Assembly: GCF_024436055.1 (NCBI RefSeq) | Contig: NZ_JANFNH010000013.1 | Location: forward strand, 62,001 to 126,000 | From: Streptantibioticus rubrisoli | GTDB lineage: Bacteria > Actinomycetota > Actinomycetes > Streptomycetales > Streptomycetaceae | Direction: 5' to 3' | DNA: 64,000 nucleotides | Shown here: positions 39,072 through 63,110 of the stretch, in pieces | Position numbering within the stretch: the stretch's first letter is position 1 | Layout of the letters: each line of letters starts with the position of its first letter | Notes under the pieces: generated by a model | Database searches by the model: none | Seen by the model: the letters and a program-made list of their open reading frames with translations, nothing else | Told to the model about the DNA's origin: nothing | Program-made: the position numbers and the translations under genes

Positions 39072-41216
39072 TCAGGGACGCCTCATATGTAGTCGCACGG
39101 GCTCGGCAAGGGCGGAAGTCGCCCCTGGGAAGTCGGCCAGCCGCATGGCGACCGTGGCCACGGCGAGCCGCTCGGGCAGCGCGGCGGAGAACTTCAGCCC
39201 CCGCACCGCGCGGCGGTCGACGTCCGGCAGGACCAGCGAGTTACCGGCCCCGGCGCGAGCCGCGCGCCACATCTCGGGAGTCAGGTCTTCCCGGAGTCGC
39301 ACCCAGTAGTCCGTGGGACGTTGCACGGGATCGGCTACTGCGGCAAGGGTCGCCGCCAGCGTCGCGTTCGCGCGGTAGCCCGCCCAGGTCCACCACCGTA
39401 CGTCGTCTCCTACTCGGGTCAGCAGCGTTCCCGCCGGGTGGACAAGGTCCGGTGCGTCGTCCTCCCGCCAAGTGCGCAGACACGCCAGAGCACGCCGGGT
39501 GAGCGACACTGGTGGGTCAGCTCCGAGCAACACCTCGCGCATGGCTCGCGTCAGCTCGTACGACAGCCCGGCGATGCCGCCGGAAGTCCATTTCGCGATC
39601 CCCCCGCTGTCGGCCGGCTCGACGAAGACTCGCTTGCGCGTCCAGTCGATGAACGTCACCTGCCAACTGCGCCCTGCCAGCAGCAGTCGCCGCGGCCCCG
39701 GACGTTCCTCGGTCAGTACTGATGGATCCGTCCGTCCGATCTCGGCGCGTCCCGACAACACGGTGAACTGCGGTGGCGCGGTGAAGGAGGCGGTCAATTC
39801 GATGAAGTGCCGGCGCCCGAAGCGTTTTTCGGCTTCCGGCCCTATGAACAGCAGCCCCCCGTCCTCGTCCAGGAATCCCTCGCGGACCAGGTGGCGAAGG
39901 ATCGGCTCCGCTGAGGAGTCGAACGGAGCGAGCCCGTTCCATTCGCCTTGCCACAACTGGTCCCCCATCTTGTGTTCTTGCAAGGCGAGAGCGAGAAGCT
40001 GCTGCGCCACCAGGTGGCGTGGTTCCGGTGGAGAGCTCACCCTCTCCACCCAGCCACGCCCCCACAGCAGGAGCAGCCCGGCAGCGTGCAGAAGCGTCTC
40101 CTTGCGCGTCGTCACGAACAGGCAGTTGCGGACGGTGCCAGCGCGCCGACCCGTTCGGCCGATGCGTTGCAGGAACGAGGCGACAGTGCCCGGCGAGTCG
40201 ACCTGGATCACCCGGTCCAGATCGCCCACGTCGATACCGAGTTCAAGGGTCGACGTCGCGATGATCACGCAGTCGCGAGCCTCGGCGAACGCCTGCTCCG
40301 AACGTGCCCGTTCCTCCGCGGAGAGCGAGGCGTGGGAGAGATAGGCGGTGACACCACGGGCACGCAGCGCGGCGCCGAGCTCCTCGACCTGACGCCGGGA
40401 GTCACAGAAGACCAGGCGCTTCTCGCCGTGGTGCAGCGACGCGATGAGTTTCGCGGCGTTGTCGAGGGAGGCCACGTAGTCGAGTTCCACGTCCCCGGGC
40501 GGGGGAGTGTTCGGGAGCTGGACAGTGGGATGAGCGGGTGCGATGACGCGCCCCGCGCGGTTCCCGGCCCCAGCTCCTTGGAGCCAGGTCAGCAACTGCT
40601 CCGGATTGCCCACGGTAGCCGACAGTCCAATCCGCTGGATGCGCCGTCCGCTGATCCGTTCGAGGCGTTCCAGCACGGCGAGCAGGTGCCATCCCCGGTC
40701 GTCGCCAGCGAAGGCGTGCACCTCGTCCACGATCACCGTCCGCACGTTGCCGAGCAGGTGAGCGTGATCGGTTTTCACGCCGATGAGCATGGATTCCAGG
40801 GATTCGGGGGTGGTGAGCAGGATGTCGGGCGGATCGGTGCGGATGCGTCTGCGGTGGGACTCCTTGATGTCGCCGTGCCAGATCGCCGCGCGTCGGCCGA
40901 GCCACTGCGAGTACGTGTCGACGCGGGTGATGAGGTTGTTGAGGAGCGCTTTGAGCGGGCAGAGGTAGAGCACGGAGACTCCGTGCCACCGGTGTCGGGC
41001 CATGGCCGACAGCAGGGGGAAGCAGGCTGCTTCCGTCTTACCGCCCGCGGTTGGGGCGAGGAGCACCGCGTCCTCGCCGTCCATCAGCGGTTTGATGGCA
41101 GCCCGTTGCAACGGCCGCAGGTCCGGCCAGCCAAGGGTGTTGACGATGTGATGGAGGACGACGGGATCGAGACGTTCCATCGGGTCGCCCGGACAGGAGG
41201 CTGGGGAAGACGTCAT
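39072..41216 (-). CDS. brxHI: BREX type 2 DEAD/DEAH-box helicase BrxHI
   Basis: A 714-residue superfamily 2 helicase resembling Lhr. Walker A is LLAPTAGGKTEA near residue 50, then PLKALLNN, TTPESLE, the DEVH box VIVDEVHAF near 158, SAT in GLSATVGN near 200, and the C-terminal QRIGRTGRR motif VI near 355. In type 2 BREX, brxHI is the last core gene, as here. Its ATG overlaps the brxD stop (ATGA, 41213-41216), so the two are co-translated. Its exact role in phage exclusion is not established. Confidence 0.92.
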   Translation of the reverse strand: MTSSPASCPGDPMERLDPVVLHHIVNTLGWPDLRPLQRAAIKPLMDGEDAVLLAPTAGGKTEAACFPLLSAMARHRWHGVSVLYLCPLKALLNNLITRVDTYSQWLGRRAAIWHGDIKESHRRRIRTDPPDILLTTPESLESMLIGVKTDHAHLLGNVRTVIVDEVHAFAGDDRGWHLLAVLERLERISGRRIQRIGLSATVGNPEQLLTWLQGAGAGNRAGRVIAPAHPTVQLPNTPPPGDVELDYVASLDNAAKLIASLHHGEKRLVFCDSRRQVEELGAALRARGVTAYLSHASLSAEERARSEQAFAEARDCVIIATSTLELGIDVGDLDRVIQVDSPGTVASFLQRIGRTGRRAGTVRNCLFVTTRKETLLHAAGLLLLWGRGWVERVSSPPEPRHLVAQQLLALALQEHKMGDQLWQGEWNGLAPFDSSAEPILRHLVREGFLDEDGGLLFIGPEAEKRFGRRHFIELTASFTAPPQFTVLSGRAEIGRTDPSVLTEERPGPRRLLLAGRSWQVTFIDWTRKRVFVEPADSGGIAKWTSGGIAGLSYELTRAMREVLLGADPPVSLTRRALACLRTWREDDAPDLVHPAGTLLTRVGDDVRWWTWAGYRANATLAATLAAVADPVQRPTDYWVRLREDLTPEMWRAARAGAGNSLVLPDVDRRAVRGLKFSAALPERLAVATVAMRLADFPGATSALAEPVRLHMRRP

Positions 41217-42589
41217 CCGGCGTCCGCTCCGCTGTCGTCCGGATCGACGTCGTCCAAAACCACGTCGTCAGCGGAGGCCGCCGGGGCAGCCGCGAGATTC
41301 CGTTCCTCTGGCGTGAGTTCGGCCCCGGTGAGGGTGAGGTGGTAGTGCCGTCGCGGGTCGAAGTCCTCGAACTGGTCGATCCGGTCCAGCACGTCGCCCA
41401 CGAGCTTCTTGAGGTACAACCGGGGCGCCACGCCCACCTTTCCGCCCAGCGCACCGCTGACGGCCTGTGCCAGGTCGGCCAGATAGGCGTCGTCCGCCAA
41501 CTCGCGCACGCGCCGCGGACTCGTCGCGCCGGATGCGTACAGGTCACGAATGGTGCGGCCGAGCCCGATCAGCGAATCGAGGGTGAACCCAGGAAGTCGC
41601 AGTTGCACCGCGCGAGGGTTGTCGAAGCGCGGGTCCGTGGTGAAGTCCGTGGCGAGCCGTTGAGACAGTGGCGCGAGCCGCTGGACGCCTTGCGTCCCGT
41701 CGTAGAAGGCGGGCGTTCCGGTGATCAGCAGGTACAGCCCCGGAAAGCGACCGGAATGCACCTCGTCGATCAGTTGTCGCAGGGCGTTGAGGGCCTTGTC
41801 TCGGGCGTCGGACCGTACGCGCTGAAGCGTCTCCACTTCGTCGAGCACGACGAGGAGGCCGCAGTGTCCGGAGTCGCGCAGCACGGTCAGCAGCCCCTGG
41901 AGGAAGCCGAGGGCGCCGAAGTGGTCCAGATCGCCGCGTACCCCCGCCGCACGGCGGGCGGACGCGGCCACGTGCGGCTGGCCGCCGAGCCAGGCGAGGA
42001 TTGCCGCGGCGGTTCGCTCCTCGCCCGCGTCGAGCGCTGCGCGGTAGCCGCGCAGCGCGGCCGCGAAGGTCGGGGCGTGCCGGGACACTTCGTCCAGCCG
42101 CAGGGCCATCAGCTCGTCGACCGCGGCGGCCAGCCCTTCCTCGGTGGCGCCCGCCGCGAGGGCGTCCTCCTCCAGGGCGTAGAACCACGCGTCCACGACC
42201 GGTCGCAGGGCGCTCGGGGGGAAGCTCGATGTGGTCATGCGCTCGGTGAGGCGCCGGTAGACGGTCTCCAGCCGGTGCAGCGGCGTCTCGTTCTCCGAGA
42301 TCTGGATTTCGGCGATGGCGAAATTCCGCCTTCGTGCCCGCTCTCCCAGCCATCGGCTGAAGAAGGTCTTTCCCGAGCCGTACTCACCACGTACGGCCTT
42401 GAACACCGATGCACCGGAGGCGACCGCGTCGAGTTCGGCGTCCAGGGCCGCCTCGAACCGCCCGAGCCCGGTAGCGAACAACCCGAGCCCGCTCTCCGGT
42501 ACGGCTCCGCGTCGCAGCGCGTCGATGACGTCGCGCCGACGCGTCGCGCTGATACCGGAGTCGGACTTCGCGGGGCTTGGTGCGTTCAC
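41213..42589 (-). CDS. brxD: BREX type 2 ATPase BrxD
   Basis: A 458-residue AAA-type ATPase of the BrxD (DUF2791) family. Walker A is VRGEYGSGKTFFSRW near residue 65, Walker B is LLVVLDEVETLQ near 243, and a sensor-like LLITGTPAFYDG follows. The C terminus has an acidic tail (DDVVLDDVDPDDSGADAG). The GTG start at 42589 was chosen because conserved sequence begins just after it. The frame remains open far upstream, but that part is antisense to the divergent DUF262 gene and is not real. It overlaps brxHI downstream and is cut off from pglZ by two plus-strand genes. Confidence 0.9.
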   Translation of the reverse strand: MNAPSPAKSDSGISATRRRDVIDALRRGAVPESGLGLFATGLGRFEAALDAELDAVASGASVFKAVRGEYGSGKTFFSRWLGERARRRNFAIAEIQISENETPLHRLETVYRRLTERMTTSSFPPSALRPVVDAWFYALEEDALAAGATEEGLAAAVDELMALRLDEVSRHAPTFAAALRGYRAALDAGEERTAAAILAWLGGQPHVAASARRAAGVRGDLDHFGALGFLQGLLTVLRDSGHCGLLVVLDEVETLQRVRSDARDKALNALRQLIDEVHSGRFPGLYLLITGTPAFYDGTQGVQRLAPLSQRLATDFTTDPRFDNPRAVQLRLPGFTLDSLIGLGRTIRDLYASGATSPRRVRELADDAYLADLAQAVSGALGGKVGVAPRLYLKKLVGDVLDRIDQFEDFDPRRHYHLTLTGAELTPEERNLAAAPAASADDVVLDDVDPDDSGADAG

Positions 42590-44527: not shown

Positions 44528-44534
44528 CGCGATC

Positions 44535-45586: not shown

Positions 45587-48511
45587 TCAGGAGCCCGGTC
45601 CCCGGCCCAGCTCGAACTGCTCCCGCAGTAGCGCTCGATTGAGCCGAAGCGTGCGCCCGTCGGCCAGCATCTCCAGTACCTGGACGCCGTCGAAGTTGAG
45701 CAGTTGCCGCAGCACCGCGCAGAAGCCGTCCGCGCGCGATGTGGGCAGCCCGATCCGCTGGGCGAGGGCGGTCACCGGCAGTGTGCCGCCCGCGCCCAGC
45801 AGTTCGCGCACCGCCTGTTCCACCTTTGCCGGATCAGGCTTGCGGGCCAGGGACTCCCGCTGCGCCTGGAACAGCTCGGAGTCGACCAGTGCGGTGACCA
45901 GGGCGTCGTCCGGAGCGATCGCCTCCGCCTTGAACAGCGCGTGCTCGCCGTCGGGCACCATCGTGACCTCGAACAGCGACTGGGCGCCGGAAGCCGAGGC
46001 ATCGAGGCTCTGGCGCCTTGTGGTAGCACGCCTGGCAGGTCTGGATCTGGTCTTCGGACCGGGCGCCGACGTGCGCTTGTCCGCCTGCGTGCTGGCGTTC
46101 CACCAAACCGGTTGCTGGCCGCCCAGTTCTCGCCAGCCCCTGGGCGGTTCCGCGCCGAAGCGCATGAACGCCAGGACGGGGATGGCGACTTCGGCGAGCG
46201 AGGCACCGCCGTGGTAGCCCGCCTTCAGCGCCGTGTAACGGGAGTCGGCGTCCCACAGCGCGACGATGGACCCACCGGTTTCGGGCGACACCACACGTGG
46301 GCCGCTGAGTTCTATCTCGTTCTCACCGATCGGGCCGCCGGGCGCGCGGTGCCGTGCCGACAGGGGTGTCGCCGCCTCGACGCGGACGCCGTACCGGTCG
46401 ATGACATGACCGTGGTCGCTGGTGAGAATGACGGCCCTGCCCTGCACGGCGGCCTGCGACAGCAACTCGCGAAGCCCGCCTATGTCGGCGGTTCGCCAGG
46501 ATGCGTCGCCGAGCTTCTGCTCTTTGGCGAGCCGGTCGTCGATGGTGTTGAGCACCACGGCGACATGCGTGCTCTCGCTGCTCATCGCCTCTTGCAGCGC
46601 GGGGCTGAACGCGTCGCCACCGCTGTCCGCGCGCAGGTCGTCCTTGTGGAAGACGGCGACGTCCCTGCCGCCCCAGAACGCGTGCCGGCGGAAGATCGCG
46701 GCCTCGTCGCGCTGCGAGCCGGTCATCAGCCGCCCGGCGAAGAGGGAGGTGCGGGACACCGCGGTGACGGTGGGCAGGGCGGCCGCCATGCCGCGCCGGC
46801 GCGGGGTGTCCTTCGCACCGCGTACCGGGTCGTACTCCGCCCAGTCCCGGCGCAGTTCCTCGCCGAACTCCGCCGCGATGGCCGCGCTCATCCCGTCCAG
46901 CACGATCAGCAGCACCCGGACGTCGTCGTCCTTGACGACCGGTGCCACGACGCGGGACAGGAACGATTCTACGGTGAGCATCGTCCCCGTGTCGCCGCCG
47001 GTAGAGGCCCACGTTCCGAAGTCGCGGGCGAATCGTTGGTCGATCGCCCGACGCCGCTCGCGGACCGTGGAGCACAAGGCGTCGTAGGCCGCTTTGAGTT
47101 CATGCGTCGGATCGCCGCCCGCCGCCACGTGCTCCAGAGCCAGATCGACCCAACCCGTTTCCGCCACATGGCCGTTGATCGCGTCCGTAACGCTCTGCGT
47201 CGTCTCATCGGCGTGGTCAGCTGCGGGTCCGGTCGCGAGCCACCGTGTCAGCCGCTGAGCCATCCTGGCCCGCTCCACGCGCACGTGTGCGTCCTCGTCG
47301 GCCGCGAGCCGATGCCGTTCCAGCTCCCGCACGGCGAACTCGACCCGCGCCGCGTCCCGGGCGGCCAGAGCATGCCCGACAGCGGTGAAACGCGCCTCAA
47401 GTCCAGCCCGCAACAGGGGACTTGTGCCGCACGCCCGCTCCGCGCCGAACTGCCGGCTCAGCGCCGAGGCACGGTCCAGGACGGCGGCGGTCATACGGCG
47501 AGCCGCGGCCATGTCCTCGGCCGAGCCGGACCGGCCGGACGCCAGCAGCGCCGTGACGAACTCCTCGCAGGCTCGCCCGAAGGCGGCGACCATGGCGTCC
47601 AGCAACTGCCCCTGGGCGGGCGGCGGATCACCGAACCACCGCTCGGCCCGGCCGCGCGCCCGGTAGTCCTCGGCGTCCGCCGAGTCGTCCGCGTGTACCC
47701 ACAGCGCCGCGCACACCAGGCCGAACGCCACGGCATCCGACCCGTGTTCCGCGGCGACCAGGGCGAGCAGCGCGCGGCCCGCCAGCCCAGCCTGCTCCTC
47801 CTCGCCGAGGAACCGGGTCAGCCCGTCCTGCTCCGGCGCACGCAGGGCCAGGAACCGCTCCGGCCCGCACGGGGCGAGCGACCAGCGCAGCAAGGTGTGC
47901 ACGTCCAGCTCCACCGCGCCCGCGACGCCGCCGGGGGATCGGCCTTCCACGTCCGGGTCGTAGACGCCCGCGCCCAGGCGGCGCAGCGCCAGCGCGGCCA
48001 GCGCGTACCGCCGCGGCAGCAGGCCCTTGCCCAACTGTGGCCAGCCGCCCGGCGGCGTCGCGTCCAGTAGTGCCTCGGCCGCCCAGTTCTCCGCGGCCAG
48101 TGCGCGATCGGTGCCCTGCGCGCCGAACGCCTCGCGCACCACGTCCCAGATGTCCACGGCGTTGACGCGCTGCTTGTGGACCCGGGCCAGCAGGTCGGCG
48201 CCGAGTTCGGACTCCTCACGGTCCGTCAGCACCACCAGTACTTCCGGCCCGGCCGCGCCGGGCGCGAGGTGGCCCAGCACCAGTTCGAGGACGGCGAGCG
48301 GCGAGCCGCCGGTGGCGACCCTGGCACGCCGCTCACCCCAGACGATCTGAGCGGCGCCGTCCCAGACAGGGGCAGCCCGCAGCAGAACGGCCTTGCGCTT
48401 GCCGGTGGCCAGCCCGGACTGCGAGGCCAGGTACTGCGTCACCGTGGTGGTGTTCAGCCGCACTGCGCTGGTACCGGCGTGGGTGGTGCCCGTCGTGGTG
48501 CTCGTGCTCAC
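45587..48511 (-). CDS. pglZ: BREX type 2 alkaline-phosphatase-like protein PglZ
   Basis: A 974-residue protein with a C-terminal PglZ (alkaline-phosphatase superfamily) domain. Metal-site motifs are [13 protein letters not shown] near residue 535 and [12 protein letters not shown] near 698. The helical N-terminal ~500 residues are typical of BREX-2 PglZ. Its ATG overlaps the pglY stop (ATGA, 48508-48511). In the Streptomyces Pgl system PglZ is required for phage resistance and has been linked to restraining PglX toxicity. Its 3' end lies only 17 bases from the converging CBS-HEPN stop, with no obvious terminator between. Confidence 0.94.
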
Positions 48512-51500
48512 TCGCCCTCCACCACGCGCCAGCTGATCTCGATGACGGCGTCCGGTTCCCGGGCCGCCAACTCCTCCAGTTCGGCGCGCAGTTCCGCGAT
48601 GGCGCGGGACGCCTTGGTACGGCCGCCGCCCGAGCGCCGCACCCGCCGCTCACCCGGTGTGCGCTCGGTGCGCGCCTCGGGTACGGGCGGATGGCTGCTC
48701 GGCGTCGTCAGGTCCACCGAGCCGGGACCGGGACGGACGGGCGTGGGCCGCTCCGCCCGTGATGCCTCGGCGACGGAGTGCGCTTCGACCCTGCTGCGTT
48801 CCTCCATCACCGCCACGACCGCCCGCCTGGCGTCCCGCAGGGCGTCCGGCAGGTTGGCGGTGCGCTGGTCGGCGCGGGCCGCGTTCCGCAGCGCGTCCAG
48901 CGCCGCCTGGCCCTTCGGCCCGTAGCCCGGGGCGAGCCGCAGCATGTCCCACGCCGCGTTCGCCAACGCGGAGGCGACGGCCTGCGCCTGCACGATCGAC
49001 ACCCCGTACCGGGGCGCGGGCGCACCCGCCAGGTCGAACCCGGCCAGCGCGGCGACGGTCTGCCGGGCGGAGCCGGTACCGCTCGCCGAGCCCTGGTCGG
49101 TGGCGAGCAGGGCGTCGAGCAGCGCCAACGAGCGTCGGGCCAGGGCGAGTCGGCCGGAGTCGTCGGTCTCGTCGAGGCCGAGCAGTGCGGCGTGCTGCTC
49201 CAACTGCTCCACGAGATCCGCCGCGTGGGGCTGGTACGCGCGCGCCTTGCCCAGGATCTGCCGGGCGAACTGGCTGACGATCCGCCCGCGCCGCAGCGTC
49301 GGAGCCTTCTCGCCGAAGATCTCCTCGTACCGCCGCCGGGCCTCGTCCCACACCGACTCGTCGGGCAGCGGCTGGGCACGCAGCGCGTCCCCGGCCTTGA
49401 TCTGGCCCGGTTCGGGCGCCGGGTCGAGCAGGCCGCCGGCCCGCACCCACACCCGGTCGTCCATCTCCGCGTAGGAGGCGATCACCAGGTTGGCGAGATG
49501 CGGGGCGAGCCCCATCGCCTGCGGCCGGTCGATCCACTCGGTGAGCCGTACGACGGACAGGTCGCCGGTGACGCCCTCGGTGCTCGCCTGCCGCAGGAAG
49601 TGGTCGCGCCAGCGGGTGGACAGCTCGAAGTACGCCTCCTTCTGCGACCCGAGTCCCAGCGGCATGGCGATGTGCCGCATGGCGTCACGGTCCTTGGCCG
49701 GTACCTCCACCCGCCGATCCGCGGCTTCGGTGGCGGCGCGCAGATGTGTGAAGACCGTGCGTACCTCGGCGGGCCTGACGGCCACGTCCTTGCCCTCCGG
49801 GTCGAGGTCGGGGTGCGCGGGGAACTGGTGGGCCAGCAGCTTGCCCGCGATGTGCCGGGCCGCGTCGCGCAGCGACTGCCCGACGGACGGCTTGAGGTCC
49901 GCCACGTCAGGCAGGGGCACGAGGTGGTCGTCGTGGCCGAGTTCCACGTCGGTGGGCTTCTTCTCGGCAAGCCCGTACGCCTGCTTGAGCGCGGCCTTCA
50001 CCGTCTTGGTCAGCGAGGTGCGCTGGCCTTCCAGGAGCGCCTTGGCGCGTGCGCGGTTGTCGGCGTTGAGGTGCGAGGCGTACTGGGTGTCGAACCTGCG
50101 GGCGTCGGCGAGCGCGTAGCTGATGGTGACCAGACGCCGGAAGTCCCTGTACCGGGAGTCCGACAGCTCGGCCGGAATCCACGCCACGGTCCGCGGCCGT
50201 TCCCCGGGCTTGTCGCGAAGGTCGCGCACCCGGTTGACGTCCTCGGTCGGCCCGTACTCACCTTCGTGGTGCGGCAGTCCGACGACCAGCCGCCACAGGG
50301 ACTCGTCGCTGGGCGAGAAGTCGTGGTCCGGCACGCTGTCCGGGTCGGCGATCTCGCCGATCACCACCTCCAGCGTGCGGTCCGAGCCCCGCCAGACCAG
50401 AGTGAGTTCGTCGGCACCCATCCGGCCTTCGTGCAGTTCGAAGCCGATCTCCTCCGCCAACAGCCGCTTGAGCAGCGCCCGCCGGTTGCCGGGGTTGTCG
50501 TTGACGTTGGCGTTGGCGATCACGGAGTCGACGTCCACACCGGCCAGTTCCAGGCGGACGCCCGGGTTGGCCTGGGTGCCGGTCTCCTTGATCTCGGGGA
50601 AGCGGGACGCCCACTCGGTGACCTTGAACTTGATCGCGCCGACCTCGGCCCCCGGGATCGGCGAGACCACCGAGCCGTGGTTGAGCGCGCCGAGCCGCCG
50701 GATCGTGAGATCGCGCAGGGCCGGGACGCTGGGCGCCAGGGCGGACAGCAGCAGGGTGCACATCAGCCGGTTGTCCCCGATGAAGTTCCGGCACTGCTGC
50801 GCGAGTCGGCCGTCCACGTCATCGGGGTGGTGCAGGTAGCGTTCGACATCCTCCTCGGTGACCTCGGACTGGCCGAGCAGGTAGGGCCGCAGCTTGGTCC
50901 GGTACAGCTTGTCGGCGGCCTTGAACTCCGCCTTCAGCTTGTCCACGAACGGCTCGTCGCCACCGTCCGCGATCACCTGGTACAGGTCGCCGAGCGGGAT
51001 GAGTTGCTCCAGCCGCGCGTCGTCGCGGTGGTCGGCGAGGAGCTGCCCCATCAGCTTCAGACCGGTACGGGACCGCTGGAGCGCGGAGGAGATGTGGACC
51101 AGGGTGTCCATGAAGGCGGGGGAGAAGGGGTACGTCAGTCGGAACGACTCCTCGTCCGCGCCGGTCGTCCCCTCCTCGGAGCCGAGCAGCACGTCCCACA
51201 CCGCCGGTCCGCCGGACCGCTTGGCCTTGGCGAACGCGGCGTCGATCCGGGCCCTAGCCTCGTTGTCCTTGGGCTTCAGCAGCCGGGCGTGGGCGATCTG
51301 CGGGAGGTTGCGGTCCTCCAGCGTGATCTTGTCGAACCGGCCCGAGGCGAGGTTGAGACTGTCCTGGATCGCGGTCTCGGCCGCGCCGGACAGTTCCTCG
51401 CCGACCAGCTCGCGCAGGTCACGCTGGCGTGCGATGAACGACACGATCGGCAGGGCCCGCCGGGAGTCCGCGCCCTCCACGAAGTTGGTGATCTTGTCCG

Positions 51501-52452
51501 CCTCGCGGGAGACGAACTTCTGGTCGTGGATGCGGTTGGCGAGCCACAGGATCAGCTCGTCCATGAAGAGGATGAGCCCGTCGTAGCCGAGCCCCTTGGC
51601 GTGCGCGGCGATCACCGCGAGCCCGGCGTCCAACGAGACGAACCCGTGCTCGTCCTCCGCCGCGTTCTGGGCGAACCCCGGGAACCAGCCCGCGATCGCG
51701 TCGTGTACCAACTTGGCGCGCAGCTCGGCGGGCGTGCTCGGGTTGACCACGTCGAGGTTCACCTCGTCGCCGTCCACCTGCTCGGCGGCGAGCGCGGTGT
51801 CCACCAGCCCGGGCGTCCAGGAGAACCCGTCGCCCCACTCGTCGTCCTCGTCCGTCCCGTCCTCACCGCCCAGGCCCGCGATGAACTGCTCGTCGCCCAC
51901 CCGTTCCCGCAGCCGCCGGATGTCCGCGAAGAGTGAGTCGGTCCGGTACACCTGGGGGGTGGGGGCGTTGGGGTGTAGCGCCTTGACGTGCGAGACGTAG
52001 CCGCCGAGGATGCGCTGCTCCAACGACTTGGCGCCGAGCATGTGGTACGGCACCAGCAGGAAATTCTTCCGCTGTCCGGCGCCTCCCGCGCCGGACAGCC
52101 ATGTGTGCTTCGCCAGCACCGGATCGAACTCGGTACGCGCGAGGGCGGCTTGGTCACCGCGCAACAACGCGTACAGAACCGCCATGAAATGGGACTTACC
52201 GGAACCGAAGGAGCCATGCAGGTACGCCGCCTTCGACGTCTGTCCGTCCAGCGCCGCCCGGATCAGCCCCAGCGCCTCGTCGAAGTTCTCCAGCAGCCGC
52301 TCGGTGACCACGTAGTCCTGCAGCGCCCGGGCGCTGCCCTCCTCGGTGACCGCCTCGGCGAGCTTCAGGACGAAGTCGGAGGTGGAGATCGACGGCTTGA
52401 TGTCGATCACATCGCGGAGCAGCGGCGGCTGGTCGGTGGCGCTGGGTGACAT
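48508..52452 (-). CDS. pglY: BREX type 2 ATPase PglY (BrxC-like)
   Basis: A 1,314-residue P-loop ATPase close to the length of known PglY proteins. Walker A is [17 protein letters not shown] near residue 80, and [16 protein letters not shown] near 290 fits Walker B. The C terminus is basic, then has a coiled-coil-like tail ([20 protein letters not shown]). PglY/BrxC is the large ATPase core of BREX. The ATG at 52452 follows AAGAAGC by a few bases and begins at conserved sequence. The longer frame to 52530 covers its promoter region. It is the first gene of the pglYZ unit and is separated from pglX by the WhiJ/AbaA-like trio. Confidence 0.94.
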
Positions 52453-52669
52453 CGCTTCTTCGGCTTCTTTTCCGTCTGTTGTGTCTCGTTTGACCCGGGA
52501 AAAATTAGCGGGTACCCGCCATCCTTTCATTCGTCAACCGTGTTCGTCTTCCTGTCGTCCGTGATGCGGCGGAAGGCGAACGGAGAGGGTTGGGGAGCGG
52601 GGCGCGTCGGCTGTCCGAGGGGGCGCTCTGTGCCCCGCGTCTCTTTGTGGGGTGGGGGCGGGTGCGGCC
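52453..52669 (-). promoter_or_regulatory. pglYZ promoter region with 12-bp palindrome (52509-52520)
   Basis: On the minus strand, TTGACG (52533-52538) is followed by a -10-like segment, and a perfect palindrome GCGGGTACCCGC overlaps the expected -10 area. CCCGGG and an AT-rich run (AAAAATTA) adjoin it. The cargo trio separates pglY from pglWX, so pglYZ needs its own promoter, and this is the likely site. The assignment is by inspection only. Confidence 0.5.
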
Positions 52670-53367: not shown

Positions 53368-53432
53368 CCACCAGGTTGGACCAAGACTGAGCCGCCACGG
53401 CAGACTGGGACTCGCTCGTCAGAAGGGACATC

Positions 53433-54540: not shown

Positions 54541-57500
54541 CTACTTCTTCGTAGCGCGGCGCCCGCGCGTGGGCGCCGCCGGGCGCCAGGCCCGCAGGTC
54601 GTCGTCGGTCAGGCCGTGCTCGCCCTGGATCTGCGCGCGGTACCCAGCGAAGAAGGCCGCGGGCGACATGCCGTACGTCGGGTCGAACTCGTCGTGCCAC
54701 TGTCCAAGCCACGGCTGGAGTTCCAGCAGCCCAGCGAGCAGCGGGGTCAACTCCTCTGTGGTGGTGGCGTTGTTGGTGAAGTACGTGGTGAGGGCCTGCG
54801 CTTGCTCGCGGTGATCCCAGCCCGCCCACCCGTACAACTCGGGAACGCCGGAGGTGGTCGAGGAGTAGGAGATGAACCGCTCCTTCGGCACGTCCAACTT
54901 GCCCCGGGCACGCCAGTACGACGGCTTGAGGAAGTCGGCGGAGGTGTACTTCGGCGGTACGGGGATCGTGTCACGGATCTTCCGCTTGGCGGGCTCGTCC
55001 GGCGCGGCGTCCTCCTTGCGCTGGAGATCCCAGACGTGCTCCCAGTCCGCGCGCTTCTTCAGCCCGCTCGGCTTGTAGCGCAACGCGGCGAGGAACGGCA
55101 CGTGTTCGTCGGCCAGCAGGTCGGCGACGACGGCGGGCAGGTCCTTGTTGGGCGCGTAGATCGCGGCAACGGACACGAAGTCCTCGTCACGCGAGAGCGC
55201 GTCAGTGAGCTGCGAGCGGGTGAGGAGGGTGGGCTGGTCGCCGTCCTGGTACCACAGCTCCCGCTTCTCGATCCGATCCAGCAACCACCCGCGCAAAGCG
55301 CGCTCCTGAAGCTTGTCCCACCCTTCGGTCGCCCACCGCCGCTTGTACTCCGGCCGCTCGATCATCCCGATTGCACGGGAGTTCTCGATGGCGTCGATCC
55401 GCTTCTGCACGACGGCCTTGTAGGCGTCCGGCCAGTGCTCCGGGATGCTGGTGATCGGCGTCGACCCATGCCGCTTGAACCACTCAGTGGAGGCTTTACC
55501 CTCCTCAACTTGCCGCGCAAGTGCGATTTCGAACGCTCTTTCGCCAAGGGATAGGTCAGGTACTTCCGCTTCGGATGATCGTAGATTCTCGGCATGTAGG
55601 TCGTAGTGGAAGTAGACCTGCCAGTCCAATTCCTCCTGAAGTGCGATCATCTGGGCTCGGATTGCCGTCCACTTTGCCTGTGCTTCCCGCAGGGCAGCCG
55701 ATGCGGGGGTTGGCGCTTCTCTTGAGGTCAACGCGGAAGGGCTAGTGGCAGCCAACTCTTTGGCCAATCTGTGTAGGTTCGCGGCTAGGTCGACAGGGAA
55801 GCGTGAGGGAAGGGGAAACTCCTTCAATTTGGTTCCTGTGAACTCGTAGCGCTCCTCCCATGCCTCATCTTGCATGCCGCGCCCGTTCCCCCCACCTGCT
55901 TTAGGCTGGCTAACTTGTTTGAGCCAAAAGCATGCGGTTGAGCTGTTAAGAATGCCGAGCACTCCTACGATCGGCGCGGCCGAGCCTTCCTCGAGCGTGA
56001 ATACTGTCGCCGCTTGCGAGAAGATTTCATCTGAGTCTCGAAGGAAGAAGTGTTGGTGAGTTGCTACGAGCGTGAAAACGAGAAGCTTCTTTGAATTGTA
56101 TCGCTCAGGCGAGAAGGAAGAGTATTCATACCACGGCAGTCCGCGCTCCTCTTGTGTTCCAGACAGGGACTTTCTAATATGCAGAAGTTGCCTGGAAGGC
56201 CAAAGGGTCTTTAGCTCCTTAGTGGAGATATCGCGCTGTTCCCCTCGTTGTGAGTAAGGGAAAAGTGTTTCTGTGGAGCCTTGTGTAGCCCAGTCACGGA
56301 TCTCGAATCCTTCGACAATTCGGCGCGTCAGGTCAGGAGAAATACCGGCGCGACTGGCGGCTCCGCGCGTGAGGTAGGCATCATCCTCGCGTGTGTTGAG
56401 CATGTTGCCTGAGTCTTGCACAAAACGATAAAGCGGAGTGGTCTCGGCAGAACTTTCCAGCCGATCGCGCAACTCCGAGGCGCCGCCTCCCGACAGGCTC
56501 CACGGATGTTTCCGAAGTCTGTCCCGTGATGTATCCGTAGAACTTACCCATTCGCTTTCTGTGTCAGGATTGTCGACCTGGCTGACGATAGCTTGCCATA
56601 CCAGCCCTTGTGCGGGGACCTCGGGAAAACCCGGTTCTCCCCGCTTCCCCATGACCATTCGCACTGTTGCCGAACGGCCGCTTTTGTTGCGTCGTCCGAT
56701 GAGAATTACGGTCGGTGTGCCGTGTCCTGGAATGTATGCTCCAGATGTGTCGATCACCTCTGTGAGTTCAACATCATTAGCGAAAAAATCTTCGATTAGT
56801 CGCTTTCCGAACTCCCGCTTCATGAAACCGTTCGAGGTGATCTGGCCGACGTATCCAGAACTGCTCCCGTTTGGTCCAGGACGCTTTGCGAGTTGGAAGA
56901 ATCGCTCGGCGAATGGCACTGTCAGCTGATACTGCCTTGCACACGAGCTGTACAATCCTTTGTACAGCTCGTTGAGCGCCTTGTCCTTCACCGTGATGTA
57001 CGGCGGATTTCCCACCACCACGTGGTACCGACCCTGCTCCAGAATCCCCTTGTACTCCGGCTCGTGGATGTCCTCCGTCGAGTACGAGAACTCCGCCAGT
57101 GGATCGCCCGCCTCCAGGTCATCGAACTCGAACCCGAGCTGCCGAGCCTTAATAAGCGAATCCCCCACCGCCAAATGGATCGGCCAATCCCACCGCCCCG
57201 CCTCCGCCAGCGTCCGCATCCCCGCAACGGCCATCGCCGCCACCAGCAGCCGGAACCGGGCGATCGCCACCGCGAACGGGTTGACGTCCACGCCGTGCAC
57301 GGCATCCAGCGCAGCCCGCACCCGCGCGTGCCGGTCGACGTCAGGACGGCGCTCCGCCCACAGCGCAACCATCCGCCGGAACGCGCCCAGCACGAAGTGG
57401 CCCGACCCGCACGTCGGGTCGATCATCTTCAACTCGCCGAATGCCCCGCCCAGTTCCCGTACCACCGGGTTCATCGTGCGGTCGAGGATGAACTCCTCGA

Positions 57501-58143
57501 CGAATTCCGGGGTTTGGAGCAGCGCGTACGTCTTGCGCGCCGCCTCCGACAGGTCCTGGTAGAGGTCGCCCAGGAAGCGGGTGTTCCAGCCCTCCGTGCC
57601 GTCTTCGTTCAGCGGGTCGGTGAAGTCGTGGACGAGGGCGCCCTGTTCGTCGCGCTCGCGCCAGAACTCGACCAGCGCCCGCGCGCCGTCGTGCGAGACG
57701 GGGATCTGGAAGAGCGGGTTGCGGTCCGGGTTGAACAGGAGCCTGCCCGCCTGGCCTTCGCCGAGTTCCGCGAAGGCGCGCTCCAGCCAGCCCCGGTACG
57801 TCGGGTCCGGGTCCTCGCTCGCGTACGCGGCGTACCGCTCCAGCGCGAGGTCGTGCCGTTCGCCGTCCGGGCCTGTGAGGTACGGCTCGGGGATCAGGCG
57901 GTTGTCCTCGCAGAAGCGGACGAAGACCGTGCCGAGCACCCAGGCGACGGCGACCTGGGTGATCCGCTCGTCCAGCCAGGAGTTCCAGGTGGCCCCCGTG
58001 CGCTTGACGTCGAAGGCGCGCTTGTGTTCCGCCTTGAGCCGGTCCCGTACCTCCGTGAGCGCCCGCACCTGCTTGTCCAGGTCGGTCTCGACCGCCTTCA
58101 CCTGCTGCTTCAGGTCGTCCAGCAGTGCCTTGCGGTCGATCAC
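54541..58143 (-). CDS. pglX: BREX type 2 adenine-specific DNA methyltransferase PglX
   Basis: A 1,200-residue N6-adenine methyltransferase. The AdoMet motif is MIDPTCGSGHFVLGAF near residue 240 and the catalytic motif is VVVGNPPYITVKD near 376. The region after NPPY should hold target recognition; the C-terminal 250 residues are conserved PglX sequence. PglX marks self DNA and is needed for exclusion. The GTG start at 58143 follows the pglW stop by one base, so the two are coupled. No long G or C tract is visible in the gene, unlike the phase-variable pglX of Streptomyces coelicolor. Residues ~380-880 are encoded by much more AT-rich DNA with different codon choice. Confidence 0.95.
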   Translation of the reverse strand: MIDRKALLDDLKQQVKAVETDLDKQVRALTEVRDRLKAEHKRAFDVKRTGATWNSWLDERITQVAVAWVLGTVFVRFCEDNRLIPEPYLTGPDGERHDLALERYAAYASEDPDPTYRGWLERAFAELGEGQAGRLLFNPDRNPLFQIPVSHDGARALVEFWRERDEQGALVHDFTDPLNEDGTEGWNTRFLGDLYQDLSEAARKTYALLQTPEFVEEFILDRTMNPVVRELGGAFGELKMIDPTCGSGHFVLGAFRRMVALWAERRPDVDRHARVRAALDAVHGVDVNPFAVAIARFRLLVAAMAVAGMRTLAEAGRWDWPIHLAVGDSLIKARQLGFEFDDLEAGDPLAEFSYSTEDIHEPEYKGILEQGRYHVVVGNPPYITVKDKALNELYKGLYSSCARQYQLTVPFAERFFQLAKRPGPNGSSSGYVGQITSNGFMKREFGKRLIEDFFANDVELTEVIDTSGAYIPGHGTPTVILIGRRNKSGRSATVRMVMGKRGEPGFPEVPAQGLVWQAIVSQVDNPDTESEWVSSTDTSRDRLRKHPWSLSGGGASELRDRLESSAETTPLYRFVQDSGNMLNTREDDAYLTRGAASRAGISPDLTRRIVEGFEIRDWATQGSTETLFPYSQRGEQRDISTKELKTLWPSRQLLHIRKSLSGTQEERGLPWYEYSSFSPERYNSKKLLVFTLVATHQHFFLRDSDEIFSQAATVFTLEEGSAAPIVGVLGILNSSTACFWLKQVSQPKAGGGNGRGMQDEAWEERYEFTGTKLKEFPLPSRFPVDLAANLHRLAKELAATSPSALTSREAPTPASAALREAQAKWTAIRAQMIALQEELDWQVYFHYDLHAENLRSSEAEVPDLSLGERAFEIALARQVEEGKASTEWFKRHGSTPITSIPEHWPDAYKAVVQKRIDAIENSRAIGMIERPEYKRRWATEGWDKLQERALRGWLLDRIEKRELWYQDGDQPTLLTRSQLTDALSRDEDFVSVAAIYAPNKDLPAVVADLLADEHVPFLAALRYKPSGLKKRADWEHVWDLQRKEDAAPDEPAKRKIRDTIPVPPKYTSADFLKPSYWRARGKLDVPKERFISYSSTTSGVPELYGWAGWDHREQAQALTTYFTNNATTTEELTPLLAGLLELQPWLGQWHDEFDPTYGMSPAAFFAGYRAQIQGEHGLTDDDLRAWRPAAPTRGRRATKK
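55500..57000 (-). other. AT-rich segment within pglX (candidate swapped target-recognition region)
   Basis: Hand counts of individual 60-base lines here give about 42-55% G+C (25/60 at 56041 and at 56761), against 62-73% just outside (44/60 at 57361). Codons ending in A or T are frequent. The reading frame is unbroken. Location after the NPPY motif suggests that a specificity domain from a lower-GC source was recombined into a resident pglX. Confidence 0.8.
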
Positions 58144-58144
58144 G

Positions 58145-61100
58145 TCAGGCTCTCCTTTGTTGTACGGACGTTTGTTGTGCGGTTGGTGTACGGGCTGCGT
58201 CGGCGGCGGACGGTACGGCCGCAGTGCCGGGGCGGACTACCCACGCGTCGGGGAGTTCTATCCACTCACCCAGGCCGGACTGGTACGCCACCGCCGTCCG
58301 GCCCAGGCGCGGTGGGCGGGCGGGGTCGGACTGCGGGCAGAGCAGCCACAGCGCGCGCTCGCCGTGGCGGGCGCGGTCCGCGAGGCGCTCCAGGGTGGCC
58401 ATCGCGTCGTAGCGGGCGAGCACGCCGGCGTCCACAAGCAGCACCGGACCGTCGCCGTTCGCGCGGCCGAGGCGGGCGGCGATGCGCGGTTCGACCAAAC
58501 TCCACGCGGTGCGCGCGTACTCGGCGAACTTCATCGCCGCCTTCGAACCCGGCTCGGCGACATCCGCCTTGAGGATCGTCTCCCAGGTCGGCTTGGGCCG
58601 CCGATCCACCTGCTCGTGCAGTGCGGCGATGAACAGCTCCGCGACGGAGAGAACTTCCGCGCCCACCTGCCCGTCCGGGGTGGAGAGGCGACGGACCGCT
58701 CCCGTCATCCGCAGCGTGTGGACGGTGAGCACGCGGAAGCCGTCCCGCCGGGCCGAGGCCAGCAGCCGTTCACCGGTGCGGATCGCGGCGGCCAGCGTCG
58801 GGTCGTTGTCGTAGCGGGTGGCCTGGACGGCGGTGAGGGTCCGGCCGCGCGCGTCCGACGAGATGTAACTGGAGATGCTGTTGGCGTGCCGTGGGAGGTA
58901 CCGCTGGATCCGATTGTCCTCGTGGGTCTTCAGCACCAGGTCGAAGCCTGCCTCCTGGAGCGCCTTGGTCAGCCGCCCGCCCTCCGGCAGGCTGTGACCG
59001 CCCCGGGCGTCCAGCAACTCCGGGAAGCGAGCCCGTACTCGTTCGTGGATCTCTTCGACGCGTAGCCCCGCTTGCTGGCCCTCGGGTACGCCGGGAACCA
59101 GGCGTACCAGCCCTGCCTGCGTCAGGCGCAGCGCGCGCACCAGCGGCAGGTTGCGCGGGTAGATCTCCAGCCGCGGGGTGGCGGCGGCGTTGCGGGACGC
59201 GGCGGCGGCCAGCTGGACGATGCGCCGCTCGTCCCAGGCCACGGCGCCCGGTGGCGGCGGAACGGCACCCAGTTCGGCGAGTACCGTCGCCGAGGTGGGC
59301 AGCGACTCGGCCTCGGCGAGCTTGTCGGCGACCCGGCCGAGCCGCTGTGCGTACTCCAACAGGGCAGGCCCCGACGGGGTGTCCGGTCCGTCGTCGTCAC
59401 CGACCTCGAGGGCCAGCAGGCCCGCGCCCATGCCCTCGTCAACCGCATCGCGGTTGGCCGCGTGCTGGAACTCCCGGCTCGCGGGATCGAGTTGCTCGAC
59501 CTCGACCACGACCCGTACCGCCGCGAGCGCCAACGCCCGGCGCTGCTCGCGGGTTTGCAACTGCGTACCACGGCGTACGGTGAGCGCGTCGGCGATCTCG
59601 GCGGCGGCGGCGACCCGTCCCATCCCGCGCAGCAGCTCCAGGACCTCGCCGCGCAGCGCGCGCACCGCGGTGTTGCGCTTCCAACGCGTGCGCTGCGCCT
59701 TGAGCATCTGCGGGATGCGGCCCGCGGTCAGCCCCAGTACGTCGGCCACGTCCTTCTGCTTGGGCCACGCCCCGATCGCGGGCAGCTCACCGTGCTCGTC
59801 GGGCAGGCGCAGCAACAGCCGCACCATCTCGACCTCGTTGGCGTTGGCGCCGTTCTTGCGCAGCTCCGGAACGAAGATCGCGGCGAGGGTGTCCAGGCTG
59901 ACCGCGCGCAACGCCCGTTCGCCAAGCCCTCCGGCCTGATCGCCGCCGGACCTGGCCACCGCGTCGTTGAGGGCGGCCTCGGCTGCCGACAGTTCGGCGC
60001 GTGCCTCCTTGCGCCCCTCAGGGGTGAGCGGCGAGGGCGGCTGCTCGGCGAACTTCTTCCGCCACTGCTTGATCCGGCCCTGCACCTCGTTCCTGGTCTT
60101 GGTACCGAGACCAGGAGCGTTGAGCAGTCGACGCTGACTCAGGTCGAGGAGCTGGCCGACGGTGTGGACACCCAGGCCGTGTACGAACGAGATCGCGGCC
60201 GGGCCGAGTCCGGACGAGTTGATCGGGGTCTCGCGCGTGGCCTGCTCTGCCCACAGGTTGCGCTGCTGCTCCGCGCTCTCCGGCTCGGCGGCCTCGATAC
60301 CGGGAGTGGTGGGGGCGTCGGCGTCGCCGGAGTTCGCCGTGGGAGTCGCCGGTGTGGGGGTGGAGTGACGGGAGCGGCTGGGGCGGTGCGAGGAGGGGAG
60401 TGCCTCGTCCAGGTCAAGGAAGATCTTCTTCCAGGCGTCCCGCATCTGCTTGAGCTCGGGGTACCGCTTGCTGGCGTCCCGGTGGAGGGCCGTGCGGAAG
60501 AACTTGACCAGCGCGTCCTTCACGGCGGAATCGAACGCGTCCGCGGCGATCGTCGGATACGGCTGGTCCTTCTCGTCGGTCTGCCGCGCCGACACCTTCC
60601 CGTCGCCCCAGACCGGCAGTTCGCGGGAGGCCATCTCGTGGAGGGTGACGGCGAGGGCGTACCGCTCCGCGTGGCCGTCGTAGACAGGACGCGCCAGCGT
60701 GCCGAGGAACGGGTCCAGATATCCCTCTGTTCCCGCCTGGTACTCCTGCACGGGGTAGCCCGCGAGCGAGAAGTCGATCAGCACCAGTTCCCGCGTGCGG
60801 TTCGGGCGGACCCGGATCGCGATGTTGTCCGGTTTGATGTCCCGGTGCCAGACGCCCTCGCCCTCAAGGAAGTCCACCGCCCCGAAGAGGTAGTCCCCGT
60901 AGGACTCCAATTGGTCGACGGTGAGTCGTCCCTCGTCGCGCAACAGGCGGGCGACGGTCTCCTCACGACGGCGGCGCCTGCTGGAAACGGTGCCGCTGCC
61001 GGTGGTGTCCTCCTCACGCTCGTCGCCGACGTACTCGATGACGAGAACCGTGCGTCCGGCGATCTTCTGTGGCTCGGGCTCGACGAGGCGGATGATCCGT

Positions 61101-62965
61101 GAGTCGGGGCGCAGCCTGCCCATCACTTCGGCCTCGCGTACCAGTAGCTTGGCGCGTTCCTCCGACATCGCGACCTTCAGCACCGCGAAGGCCTTCGACC
61201 TGCCGCGCACGGAGGGGTCGACGGTCAGGTCCCGTACCAGGAACGCGCGGCTGGTGGAGCCGGTGCCAAGGCGGCGGCGCACTTCCCAGCGACCGGCGAG
61301 CACGTCACCGGGGACGGCGTCCAGCGGGTCCTTCTCCTGCTGCTCCTCGGCGGCCGGGCGCGGCTGGTCGGGGATGGAGGGTGCCGGGGCACCGGTTGCG
61401 GCCCGTGCGGCGGCCTCCACCGCGGGTGCGGGCCCCTCGCCAGGCGGCGCGGTCAGGCTTTCCTCGACGAACTCCAGCATCTCCAGGAACTCGTTGACGG
61501 TCGCCAGACGCTGGCCGGGACGGAAGGCGGTCGCCGCCTGTACCAGCTCGTCGATGTCGGGGGAGAGCCCGTCGACCAGCGCGCTGGGCCGCAGGCCCTC
61601 GCCCGCCTCCAGGCGGGCCACCAGCTCGGCCTGGCTCGCGCCGGGCGGTTTGCCCGTCGCCAGCAGGTACGTGAGCATGCCGAGCCCGTAGATGTCGAGC
61701 GCGACGGGGTCGGGGTTGAGCGCGGTCAGGTCGGGGGCGAGGTACGGGTCGGCGCCCTCCGCGATGTGCGCTCCGGCGTTGGACAGCGCGGTGGGAGCGA
61801 AGCGGTCGGCGGTGGCCTGCCCGTGGTCGCCGAGTCGCTGGACGGCCACCTGCCAGTCGGAAATCTGCAGGTGTGGTACGAGCCAGCCGGCCGTCTCCGT
61901 GTCGGTCCCGGCGGCCCGGCCCCGGGGCCGTGGGATGACGTGCACGGAGTGCGCGGACAGCGTGCGGTGGTAGATCCGTGCGCCGTGCGCGCTGCGCACC
62001 GTCTCCGCGAGCTGGCGGACCAGGGCCATCCTGCCGAGGATGTCCAACTTGTCGCCGTACTGGGCGAGATACTCGTCCAGTCGCAGGGTCCGCGGATCGT
62101 ATTCGAAGATCAGGGCGGGACCGGCGGTGTGGCCTGACGGGTCGTACTGCTTCAACTGGACGACGCCGGGGTGCCGGAAGCGCCGCAGCACCGCCGCCTC
62201 CCGCCGGGCGGCGCGCTCCACCGACGCTCGCAACTCCGCGTCCGACCCGCGCTCGCGAAGGTAGACGCGGATGCGGGCGGCCTCGGGCAACTCGCTGTGC
62301 TGGGCCAGGTAGTCGGCCCAGGTGGGTCCCGAGTCAAACGCCTTGCGGTTGAGCAGGTAGGGGCCGACCTTGTAGGCCGCGTCGCTCCGCGCGATGCCGA
62401 TGCGCTCCAGGGACGACTTCAGCGCGCGCGAGCGGGTGGCGTCGAACCGGCGCCGCTGCTCGCGCGGCGGCTCCTTGAGCATCGCGACCAGTTCGTTGAT
62501 CGTGTACACACCCTGCTGGTCGTGGGCGGGCAACCGGATCCGCAGCGACGAGTCCGTGAAGCAGACGGCCTCGGACACCCAGGGGGCGGGCATGCCGTGC
62601 GGCGTGGCCTGACGGAGGAGGTCGCCCAGTTCCCTCGCCTTCTTGTTCGCCAGGTGCAGCGGATTGCTGTGCGAGAGCTGCTGTCCACCGGGTCGGGTCT
62701 GCAGCCAGCTGCCGTTGCGGGACTCGACCGATCCGTGCCAGTCCTTCAGCTCGATCAGGTACACCCCGCCGGGCGCGACGACCAGCAGGTCTACCTCGCG
62801 TACGTGCCCCGTGCTGGCGGTGAATGTGAAGTTCGACCATGCCCGCCACGGCTCGGCGTCGGGCAGCTTGTCGCGGATCGCCTCCAGGCCCCTGCGTTCA
62901 TGCGGGAACTCCGAGTCGGTGACTGTTTCCCACCGGCCGTCCCGCATACGCCAGCCCCGCTTCAT
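58145..62965 (-). CDS. pglW: BREX type 2 serine/threonine kinase PglW with NERD domain
   Basis: A 1,606-residue multidomain protein. An N-terminal NERD (nuclease-related) domain at about 15-130 has VDLLVVAPGGVYLIELKDWHG. A kinase-like region at about 225-490 has degenerate motifs (HRTLSAHSV for HRDLxxxN; SDWQ for DFG). A second kinase domain at about 555-830 has LGTGSTSRAF, AVLKV, HRDIKPDN near 705 and LIDFSLAG. A helix-hairpin segment follows near 930 (FVHGLGVHTVGQLLDLS), then an HTH-like stretch (KDVADVLGLTAGRIPQML). PglW autophosphorylates in the known Pgl system. ATG 62965 was preferred to the TTG five codons earlier, which has no ribosome site. It starts the pglWX unit. Confidence 0.94.
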   Translation of the reverse strand: MKRGWRMRDGRWETVTDSEFPHERRGLEAIRDKLPDAEPWRAWSNFTFTASTGHVREVDLLVVAPGGVYLIELKDWHGSVESRNGSWLQTRPGGQQLSHSNPLHLANKKARELGDLLRQATPHGMPAPWVSEAVCFTDSSLRIRLPAHDQQGVYTINELVAMLKEPPREQRRRFDATRSRALKSSLERIGIARSDAAYKVGPYLLNRKAFDSGPTWADYLAQHSELPEAARIRVYLRERGSDAELRASVERAARREAAVLRRFRHPGVVQLKQYDPSGHTAGPALIFEYDPRTLRLDEYLAQYGDKLDILGRMALVRQLAETVRSAHGARIYHRTLSAHSVHVIPRPRGRAAGTDTETAGWLVPHLQISDWQVAVQRLGDHGQATADRFAPTALSNAGAHIAEGADPYLAPDLTALNPDPVALDIYGLGMLTYLLATGKPPGASQAELVARLEAGEGLRPSALVDGLSPDIDELVQAATAFRPGQRLATVNEFLEMLEFVEESLTAPPGEGPAPAVEAAARAATGAPAPSIPDQPRPAAEEQQEKDPLDAVPGDVLAGRWEVRRRLGTGSTSRAFLVRDLTVDPSVRGRSKAFAVLKVAMSEERAKLLVREAEVMGRLRPDSRIIRLVEPEPQKIAGRTVLVIEYVGDEREEDTTGSGTVSSRRRRREETVARLLRDEGRLTVDQLESYGDYLFGAVDFLEGEGVWHRDIKPDNIAIRVRPNRTRELVLIDFSLAGYPVQEYQAGTEGYLDPFLGTLARPVYDGHAERYALAVTLHEMASRELPVWGDGKVSARQTDEKDQPYPTIAADAFDSAVKDALVKFFRTALHRDASKRYPELKQMRDAWKKIFLDLDEALPSSHRPSRSRHSTPTPATPTANSGDADAPTTPGIEAAEPESAEQQRNLWAEQATRETPINSSGLGPAAISFVHGLGVHTVGQLLDLSQRRLLNAPGLGTKTRNEVQGRIKQWRKKFAEQPPSPLTPEGRKEARAELSAAEAALNDAVARSGGDQAGGLGERALRAVSLDTLAAIFVPELRKNGANANEVEMVRLLLRLPDEHGELPAIGAWPKQKDVADVLGLTAGRIPQMLKAQRTRWKRNTAVRALRGEVLELLRGMGRVAAAAEIADALTVRRGTQLQTREQRRALALAAVRVVVEVEQLDPASREFQHAANRDAVDEGMGAGLLALEVGDDDGPDTPSGPALLEYAQRLGRVADKLAEAESLPTSATVLAELGAVPPPPGAVAWDERRIVQLAAAASRNAAATPRLEIYPRNLPLVRALRLTQAGLVRLVPGVPEGQQAGLRVEEIHERVRARFPELLDARGGHSLPEGGRLTKALQEAGFDLVLKTHEDNRIQRYLPRHANSISSYISSDARGRTLTAVQATRYDNDPTLAAAIRTGERLLASARRDGFRVLTVHTLRMTGAVRRLSTPDGQVGAEVLSVAELFIAALHEQVDRRPKPTWETILKADVAEPGSKAAMKFAEYARTAWSLVEPRIAARLGRANGDGPVLLVDAGVLARYDAMATLERLADRARHGERALWLLCPQSDPARPPRLGRTAVAYQSGLGEWIELPDAWVVRPGTAAVPSAADAARTPTAQQTSVQQRRA

Positions 62966-63110
62966 CGCAATCTCGGTCAAAGGGGATGCGCAGTGGCTCT
63001 CAAACCCCCGGGTCAGATCGTAACGGCTCGTTGAGCTGTGCGGGGCTTGGTTCTGGACCTGAGCACGCGGCGCGGCCTGCGTCGGCGGTCGGACGGCTCG
63101 TAGCGCGTTT

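Follow-up and report, generated by a model that had tools for sequence, protein, structure and literature searches.

A low-GC3 block in pglX of Streptantibioticus rubrisoli as a probable exchangeable target-recognition cassette

The window analysed here, a stretch of 64,000 nucleotides of the Streptantibioticus rubrisoli genome, carries a type 2 bacteriophage exclusion (BREX) locus, whose methyltransferase gene, pglX, exhibits a block of low GC content in its middle. We consider it likely that this block is the exchangeable target-recognition cassette of PglX, and that its low G+C content at third codon positions (GC3) is a standing feature that neither dates nor sources a swap in the window gene. 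The low GC is regarded as a standing property of the cassette because essentially every PglX that exchanges its centre exhibits a cassette GC3 below that of its own arms.

A low-GC3 block in the centre of pglX

In bins of 40 codons, the GC3 of pglX is 0.80-1.00 across codons 1-400, 0.45-0.65 across codons 401-880 (window positions 55504-56943), and 0.85-0.95 across codons 881-1200. A fit with two boundaries places the block at codons 393-892 (window positions 56967-55468), with a GC3 of 0.56 inside and 0.92 outside, and its log-likelihood gain is 102, compared with a maximum of 10.6 in 300 shuffles of the codon order. The reading frame is open across the whole block, and the NPPY motif lies ten codons ahead of the GC3 step. 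The original prediction of an in-frame low-GC block in the middle of pglX, with changed codon use and starting just after NPPY, is therefore confirmed. Its lower figure of 42% G+C is reached only in very short windows: the total GC inside the block is ~0.55, and the lowest 300-nt window is at 0.497.

The composition of the block is a synonymous-codon effect, because invariant residues within the block also take AT-ending codons: their GC3 in the window gene is 0.53-0.63 within the block and 0.98 in the arms. The null for composition comprised the neighbouring genes in 80 loci, with pglW, pglY, and pglZ as controls, in addition to the codon-order shuffles.

An AlphaFold2 model was built from a 38-sequence alignment, with a mean pLDDT (predicted local distance difference test) of 74 and only moderate confidence in the region of the target-recognition domain (TRD). 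Structural alignment of the model with VIA-align gives a Z of 31.4 with CamA (7lt5, over residues 186-849), 27.8 with Escherichia coli BrxX (9EWZ), 23.7 with MmeI, and 23.0 with Salmonella PglX (8C45), while sequence search found no solved structure. According to this model, the block probably comprises the C-terminal part of the methyltransferase, the TRD, and the spacer helices, and thus holds the TRD as originally predicted. Within the protein family, conservation is also lowest in the centre. In type 1 BREX, the TRD is described as the most variable part and as contacting the motif (PMC11842806), and engineered TRD changes alter the motif (PMC11341690, PMC11842806). By analogy, the TRD of the window enzyme probably sets its motif as well, and a new cassette would give a new 6-bp motif for methylation and phage exclusion.

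A glycine-rich loop of the cassette contains a G6 tract on the sense strand (window positions 55888-55893), which is a G7 tract in three relatives; in Streptomyces coelicolor, a G tract in pglX is the site to which phase variation of Pgl has been mapped (PMC4365076). Control by bldA through TTA codons within the cassette is ruled out, as the cassette of the window pglX has zero TTA.

Exchange of the centre between relatives

Homologues were gathered from the family, class, and phylum of the window and from named genomes, giving a main set of 128 BREX-type PglX. Among these relatives, the identities of the two arms are closely correlated (r=0.96), whereas those of the N-terminal arm and of the core (codons 561-720) are not (r=0.12). 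The median core identity is 0.34-0.36 in every class of arm identity, from 0.45 to at least 0.95, and one pair (L026 and L030) exhibits arms that are 97% identical with cores that are 36% identical. Conserved arms around a divergent centre were expected by the original prediction. In trees of 62 sequences, supported splits of the centre contradict 26 of the 28 supported splits of the arms. Clusters of TRDs are common to Streptomyces, Nonomuraea, Micromonospora, Nocardiopsis, and Actinomadura, across genera and orders, with arms that are 0.47-0.98 identical.

In the 63 pairs whose arms share at least 92% identity, a single central tract differs, with a median position of codons 388-832 and a DNA identity of 0.56 inside and 0.90 outside. 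Its left edge lies mostly within codons 307-486 and its right edge mostly within codons 823-897. The junctions cluster at codons ~340-400 or ~470, around NPPY, and at codons ~823-832 or ~870-897, at the spacer helices, with many right-hand boundaries in the helix region of codons 823-832. They thus fall in or near conserved segments, namely NPPY and the QEELDWQVY of the spacer helix, which is the placement expected from homologous recombination in flanking conserved sequence. At the level of the family, PglX exhibits the decoupled TRD phylogeny and the paired recombination junctions of an HsdS-like exchangeable TRD. Judged from the aligned genes and their trees, these comparisons show that a centre of ~450-500 codons is exchanged in one piece between retained arms, and that the pairing of TRD types with arms has been reshuffled almost completely among actinobacterial genera.

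For the window gene, the closest arms among the relatives collected are 81% identical and thus far from near-identical, and among three genomes of the same genus a full pglX is present only in that of the window; an individual recent swap in this lineage is therefore no more than a possibility. The 103-contig assembly contains no second, inverted, or silent copy of the TRD, with one match at the DNA level and one at the protein level, and TRD variation by invertible or silent cassettes, as in domain movement (DOMO) or pneumococcal hsdS, is not seen in this genome. Because the genome has no second TRD copy, exchange needs DNA from another cell.

A lineage of solitary PglX-like proteins (L065-L070, in contexts L185 and L187-L191; ~40% identical) differs in that the identity of its core is tied far more tightly to that of its arms. 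No pglW, pglY, or pglZ was found within the 19-20 kb around each of these genes; a complete BREX type 2 locus (G234) is situated ~14 kb away from one of them. The catalytic motif is altered in five of the six proteins (SEPPY, SEPPS, SEPPF, NPPF, or NPSY), and the lineage is possibly a catalytically altered orphan or a decoy.

Composition of the cassette and its possible cause

A significant central GC3 dip is present in 127 of the 128 BREX-type PglX, the window gene being the sixth in strength, and in an enlarged set the GC3 of the centre is below that of the arms in all 155 members (means of 0.65 and 0.87). In shared loci, the dip is seen in 77 of 81 pglX, compared with 0 of 75 pglW, 0 of 63 pglY, and 1 of 49 pglZ. 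Across the family, residues invariant at a level of at least 95% have a GC3 of 0.62-0.78 in the block and 0.89-0.90 in the arms, and variable columns in the arms retain a GC3 of 0.81-0.90. The edges of the dip differ among members by tens of codons. Type 2 genes on Pseudomonadota plasmids share the dip. The pglX of L046 is a different mosaic, with a GC3 of 0.56 in the N-terminal arm and 0.91 in the C-terminal arm, which suggests that its entire 5' part was replaced.

The trough extends to type 1 PglX, for which 13 hosts were compared. The GC3 of TRD and arms is, respectively, 0.50 and 0.78 in Sinorhizobium, 0.29 and 0.55 in E. coli, 0.24 and 0.58 in Synechocystis, and 0.19 and 0.43 in Acinetobacter; overall, it is 0.19-0.52 in the TRD where the arms have 0.43-0.81. 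The type 1 troughs (L201, L202, and L232-L243, from several phyla) lie ~0.15-0.35 below their own arms, with a summary figure of ~0.2-0.27 for hosts from Acinetobacter to Sinorhizobium, except in low-GC Bacillota: among the 13 hosts, no trough is seen where the arms are already at ~0.3 (Mesobacillus and Lactiplantibacillus). With types 1 and 2 taken together, the GC3 of the TRD tracks the host (slope 0.71, r 0.77). The cassettes thus show no common donor GC value, and their GC3 is relative to the host.

In high-GC hosts, the 4-fold degenerate sites of the cassettes are saturated at a TRD identity of 0.7-0.8, where their agreement is about that of shuffled sites, and the G+C content at these sites (GC4) is mostly 0.5-0.7 in saturated cassettes, compared with 0.75-0.9 in the arms. 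The window cassette agrees at 0.26-0.29 of its 4-fold sites (0.25-0.27 expected) with the nearest cassettes (L004, L005, L074, and L124), which all come from the same high-GC family and are equally AT-rich. The leucine codon TTA, which GC-rich genomes seldom use and which serves regulation in Streptomyces (PMC4255298), occurs 39 times in the centres, compared with 303 expected from CTA, TTG, and CTG, an eightfold depletion (observed/expected 0.13, 95% confidence interval 0.07-0.19); the only control, the arms of the same genes, has 34 observed and 37.8 expected, a separate set of control reading frames having been set aside as contaminated by antisense frames. A generic low-GC donor would not shun TTA yet use CTA freely, which argues against import. 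As synonymous sites are saturated without having risen to the GC of the host, and TTA is avoided, the cassettes appear to have long resided in actinomycetes. The solitary lineage L065-L070, in turn, exhibits no dip, its TRD differing from its arms by +0.01.

A possible and the most economical explanation, to which we give somewhat less than an even chance, is that the cassettes evade a force that raises GC and is linked to homologous recombination, and that this keeps their GC3 low. The cassette may differ too much between strains to form a heteroduplex. Left unpaired, it would miss the GC-raising effect to which the arms and the rest of the genome are exposed, be it biased gene conversion or selection that recombination assists, and it would drift toward the AT-biased mutational equilibrium. 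More tentatively still, specificity cassettes could be a natural experiment in which sequences escape the GC-raising effect of recombination and settle ~0.2-0.27 GC3 below their carrier gene in hosts as different as Acinetobacter and Streptomyces, the junction being visible within a single frame.

Several observations weigh against this interpretation. The saturation of homologous cassettes leaves no polarised substitution counts, so the proposed cause of the low GC is a hypothesis. Exchange edges correlate with GC3 edges, as import would predict. In selected pairs the two seemed to coincide to the codon, but across 318 pairs the agreement is moderate (right edge, r=0.54, 0 of 2000 permutations; left edge, r=0.23, 21 of 2000), and the pairs counted here and above are not independent events. 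Conserved codons are somewhat AT-richer inside an exchanged tract (0.72 versus 0.77, and 0.71 versus 0.82), which fits import, and the avoidance of TTA could reflect purging after import. In type 2 alone, the correlation with the host is weak (r 0.32). The solitary control clade has six sequences only and differs in further ways. Finally, it is disputed whether biased gene conversion occurs in bacteria (PMC8153448, PMC6867656).

The original prediction proposed domain shuffling from a lower-GC donor. The exchange of the centre independently of the arms holds family-wide, but low GC as the trace of such a donor is not supported: a recent acquisition of the TRD by the window pglX, with low GC as its unameliorated mark, appears unlikely. 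The very sharp junctions in the window gene, the partial match of exchange and GC3 boundaries, and the fact that the centre is the exchanged part would suit this explanation. However, a separate recent import of low-GC DNA would have to be assumed for each of the 127 relatives with a dip, and troughs also lie below the level of low-GC hosts such as Acinetobacter. Moreover, among the homologues collected, the nearest cassettes belong to the same high-GC family, match the window cassette in AT-richness, and have saturated 4-fold sites, and TTA is depleted. No matching cassette was found in phage records, and plasmid matches comprise only whole PglX or related methylases. Post-import selection, or repeated import from unsampled donors, may also lie behind the low GC.

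It is likewise improbable that the AT-rich centre is old, vertically inherited, and kept by selection on codons, messenger RNA structure, or translation speed, without relation to exchange. Such selection would account for the near-universal dip in type 2 PglX and for its presence in type 1, but the tree of the centre contradicts that of the arms, the solitary clade, which does not exchange its centre, has no dip, and the variable dip edges correlate with the exchange edges. Vertical conservation of the AT-rich centre had been named in the original prediction as evidence against a swap; the AT-rich composition is indeed nearly universal, but the sequence of the centre is not vertically inherited. 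Amino-acid composition or fast protein evolution alone, which the low conservation of the centre might bring to mind, is highly improbable as the cause, as the effect is seen at synonymous third positions, including those of invariant residues, and the variable columns of the arms keep a high GC3.

The BREX locus and its relation to known systems

The features of the locus are listed in Table 1. PglX matches NCBIfam NF033451 (BREX_2_MTaseX) over residues 7-1193 with 1686.9 bits (cut-off 400) and PADLOC PDLC02529 with E=0; this full-length match above the curated cut-off, together with the S-adenosylmethionine (SAM) and NPPY motifs, identifies it as a BREX type 2 PglX, which is predicted to methylate adenine in a specific motif and to take part in phage exclusion. 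As pglW, pglX, pglY, pglZ, and brxD score above NCBIfam equivalog or exception cut-offs, and brxHI is recognised through PADLOC, the BREX type 2 locus is complete and intact.

Table 1. Features of pglX and of the BREX type 2 locus, with positions in the window
Feature	Position	Strand	Description
pglX	54541..58143	minus	1200 aa/codons; predicted adenine-specific DNA methyltransferase that sets the specificity of the BREX type 2 system
N-terminal arm, conserved, high-GC	56968..58143	minus	Codons 1-392; GC3 ~0.91; predicted to form a helical bundle and the half of the methyltransferase that binds SAM; Eco57I/MmeI_Mtase Pfam matches
CGSG SAM-binding motif	57400..57411	minus	Residues 245-248; DP[TA]CGSGHF in 128/128 BREX PglX rows
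NPPY catalytic motif	56998..57009	minus	Residues 379-382; N379-Y382 invariant columns
Low-GC3 cassette, probably exchangeable	55468..56967	minus	Codons 393-892; change-point fit; exchange seen in relatives
TRD (predicted)	55804..56511	minus	Approx. residues 545-780; AlphaFold2 model and structural alignment; least conserved part of the family
Most variable core (T2)	55984..56463	minus	Codons 561-720
Post-TRD helical spacer	55606..55794	minus	Helices 784-799 and 815-846; conserved QEELDWQVY
C-terminal arm, conserved, high-GC (DUF7008 region)	54544..55467	minus	Codons 893-1200; Pfam PF22654 at residues 832-1196; GC3 0.91
pglW	58145..62980	minus	NERD, kinase; NF033442; lacks an internal GC3 dip
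pglY	48508..52530	minus	NF047891
pglZ	45587..48511	minus	NF033446
brxD	41213..42577	minus	NF033438, 649.8 bits; start approximate, the listed open reading frame has a spurious 5' extension
brxHI	39072..41216	minus	Helicase; PADLOC PDLC02503, 1073.8 bits

The same six genes (pglW, pglX, pglY, pglZ, brxD, and brxHI) constitute the BREX type 2/Pgl system of S. coelicolor A3(2), in which the NPPY methyltransferase is required for phage resistance (PMC4365076); the window gene also has NPPY. The window locus differs by two additional gene pairs. A HATPase_c_2 gene and a gene for an XRE regulator of the Sco1979/DUF5753 type (52670-54284) split the BREX operon between pglX and pglY. Between brxD and pglZ, at 42692-45569, the plus strand encodes a GmrSD_N (DUF262) protein and a CBS-domain protein, possibly a second defence unit within the BREX locus. 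DUF262 genes also adjoin pglX in some plasmid type 1 loci (L234, L238, L241, and L243).

The PglX/BrxX of BREX type 1 (Salmonella 8C45 and E. coli HS 9EWZ) resemble the window protein in the succession of a helical N-terminus, a methyltransferase, a TRD, spacer helices, and a C-terminal region, and in the GC3 trough of the TRD, although the sequence identity in structural alignments is ~12-15%. The accessible parts of the type 1 papers (PMC11341690, PMC11842806) describe engineered changes, and neither natural cassette exchange nor composition bias. For residues 1-850, the closest solved folds are those of MmeI-type (Type IIL) enzymes and of the CamA and M.TaqI adenine methyltransferases; MmeI carries a nuclease, whereas PglX has none (PMC11341690).

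The exchange itself is of a known kind. In the S subunits of Type I (HsdS) and Type IIG systems, the TRD is replaced via conserved flanks while the rest of the gene is kept, and such shuffling includes domain movement in Helicobacter pylori (PMC3077401); the variability of the BrxX TRD is also known. PglX differs from these systems by having one TRD in a single-chain methyltransferase, without repeats flanking two TRD sites, and by the lack of a second TRD copy in the window genome. Within an incomplete coverage of the literature, we found no description of cassettes being exchanged naturally among BREX type 2 systems, nor of a persistent composition difference. The composition pattern is the surprising part.

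These observations indicate that the specificity of BREX type 2 spreads by wholesale replacement of TRDs, whose combination with arms is reshuffled almost completely, so neither the species nor the remainder of the gene allows the motif to be predicted. Nor should a block of low GC within such a specificity gene be taken as evidence that foreign DNA was recently imported. The force that maintains high GC in bacterial genomes is described as a matter of debate (PMC6867656); if the suggested cause of the composition is true, these cassettes would provide a within-gene test between biased conversion and selection.
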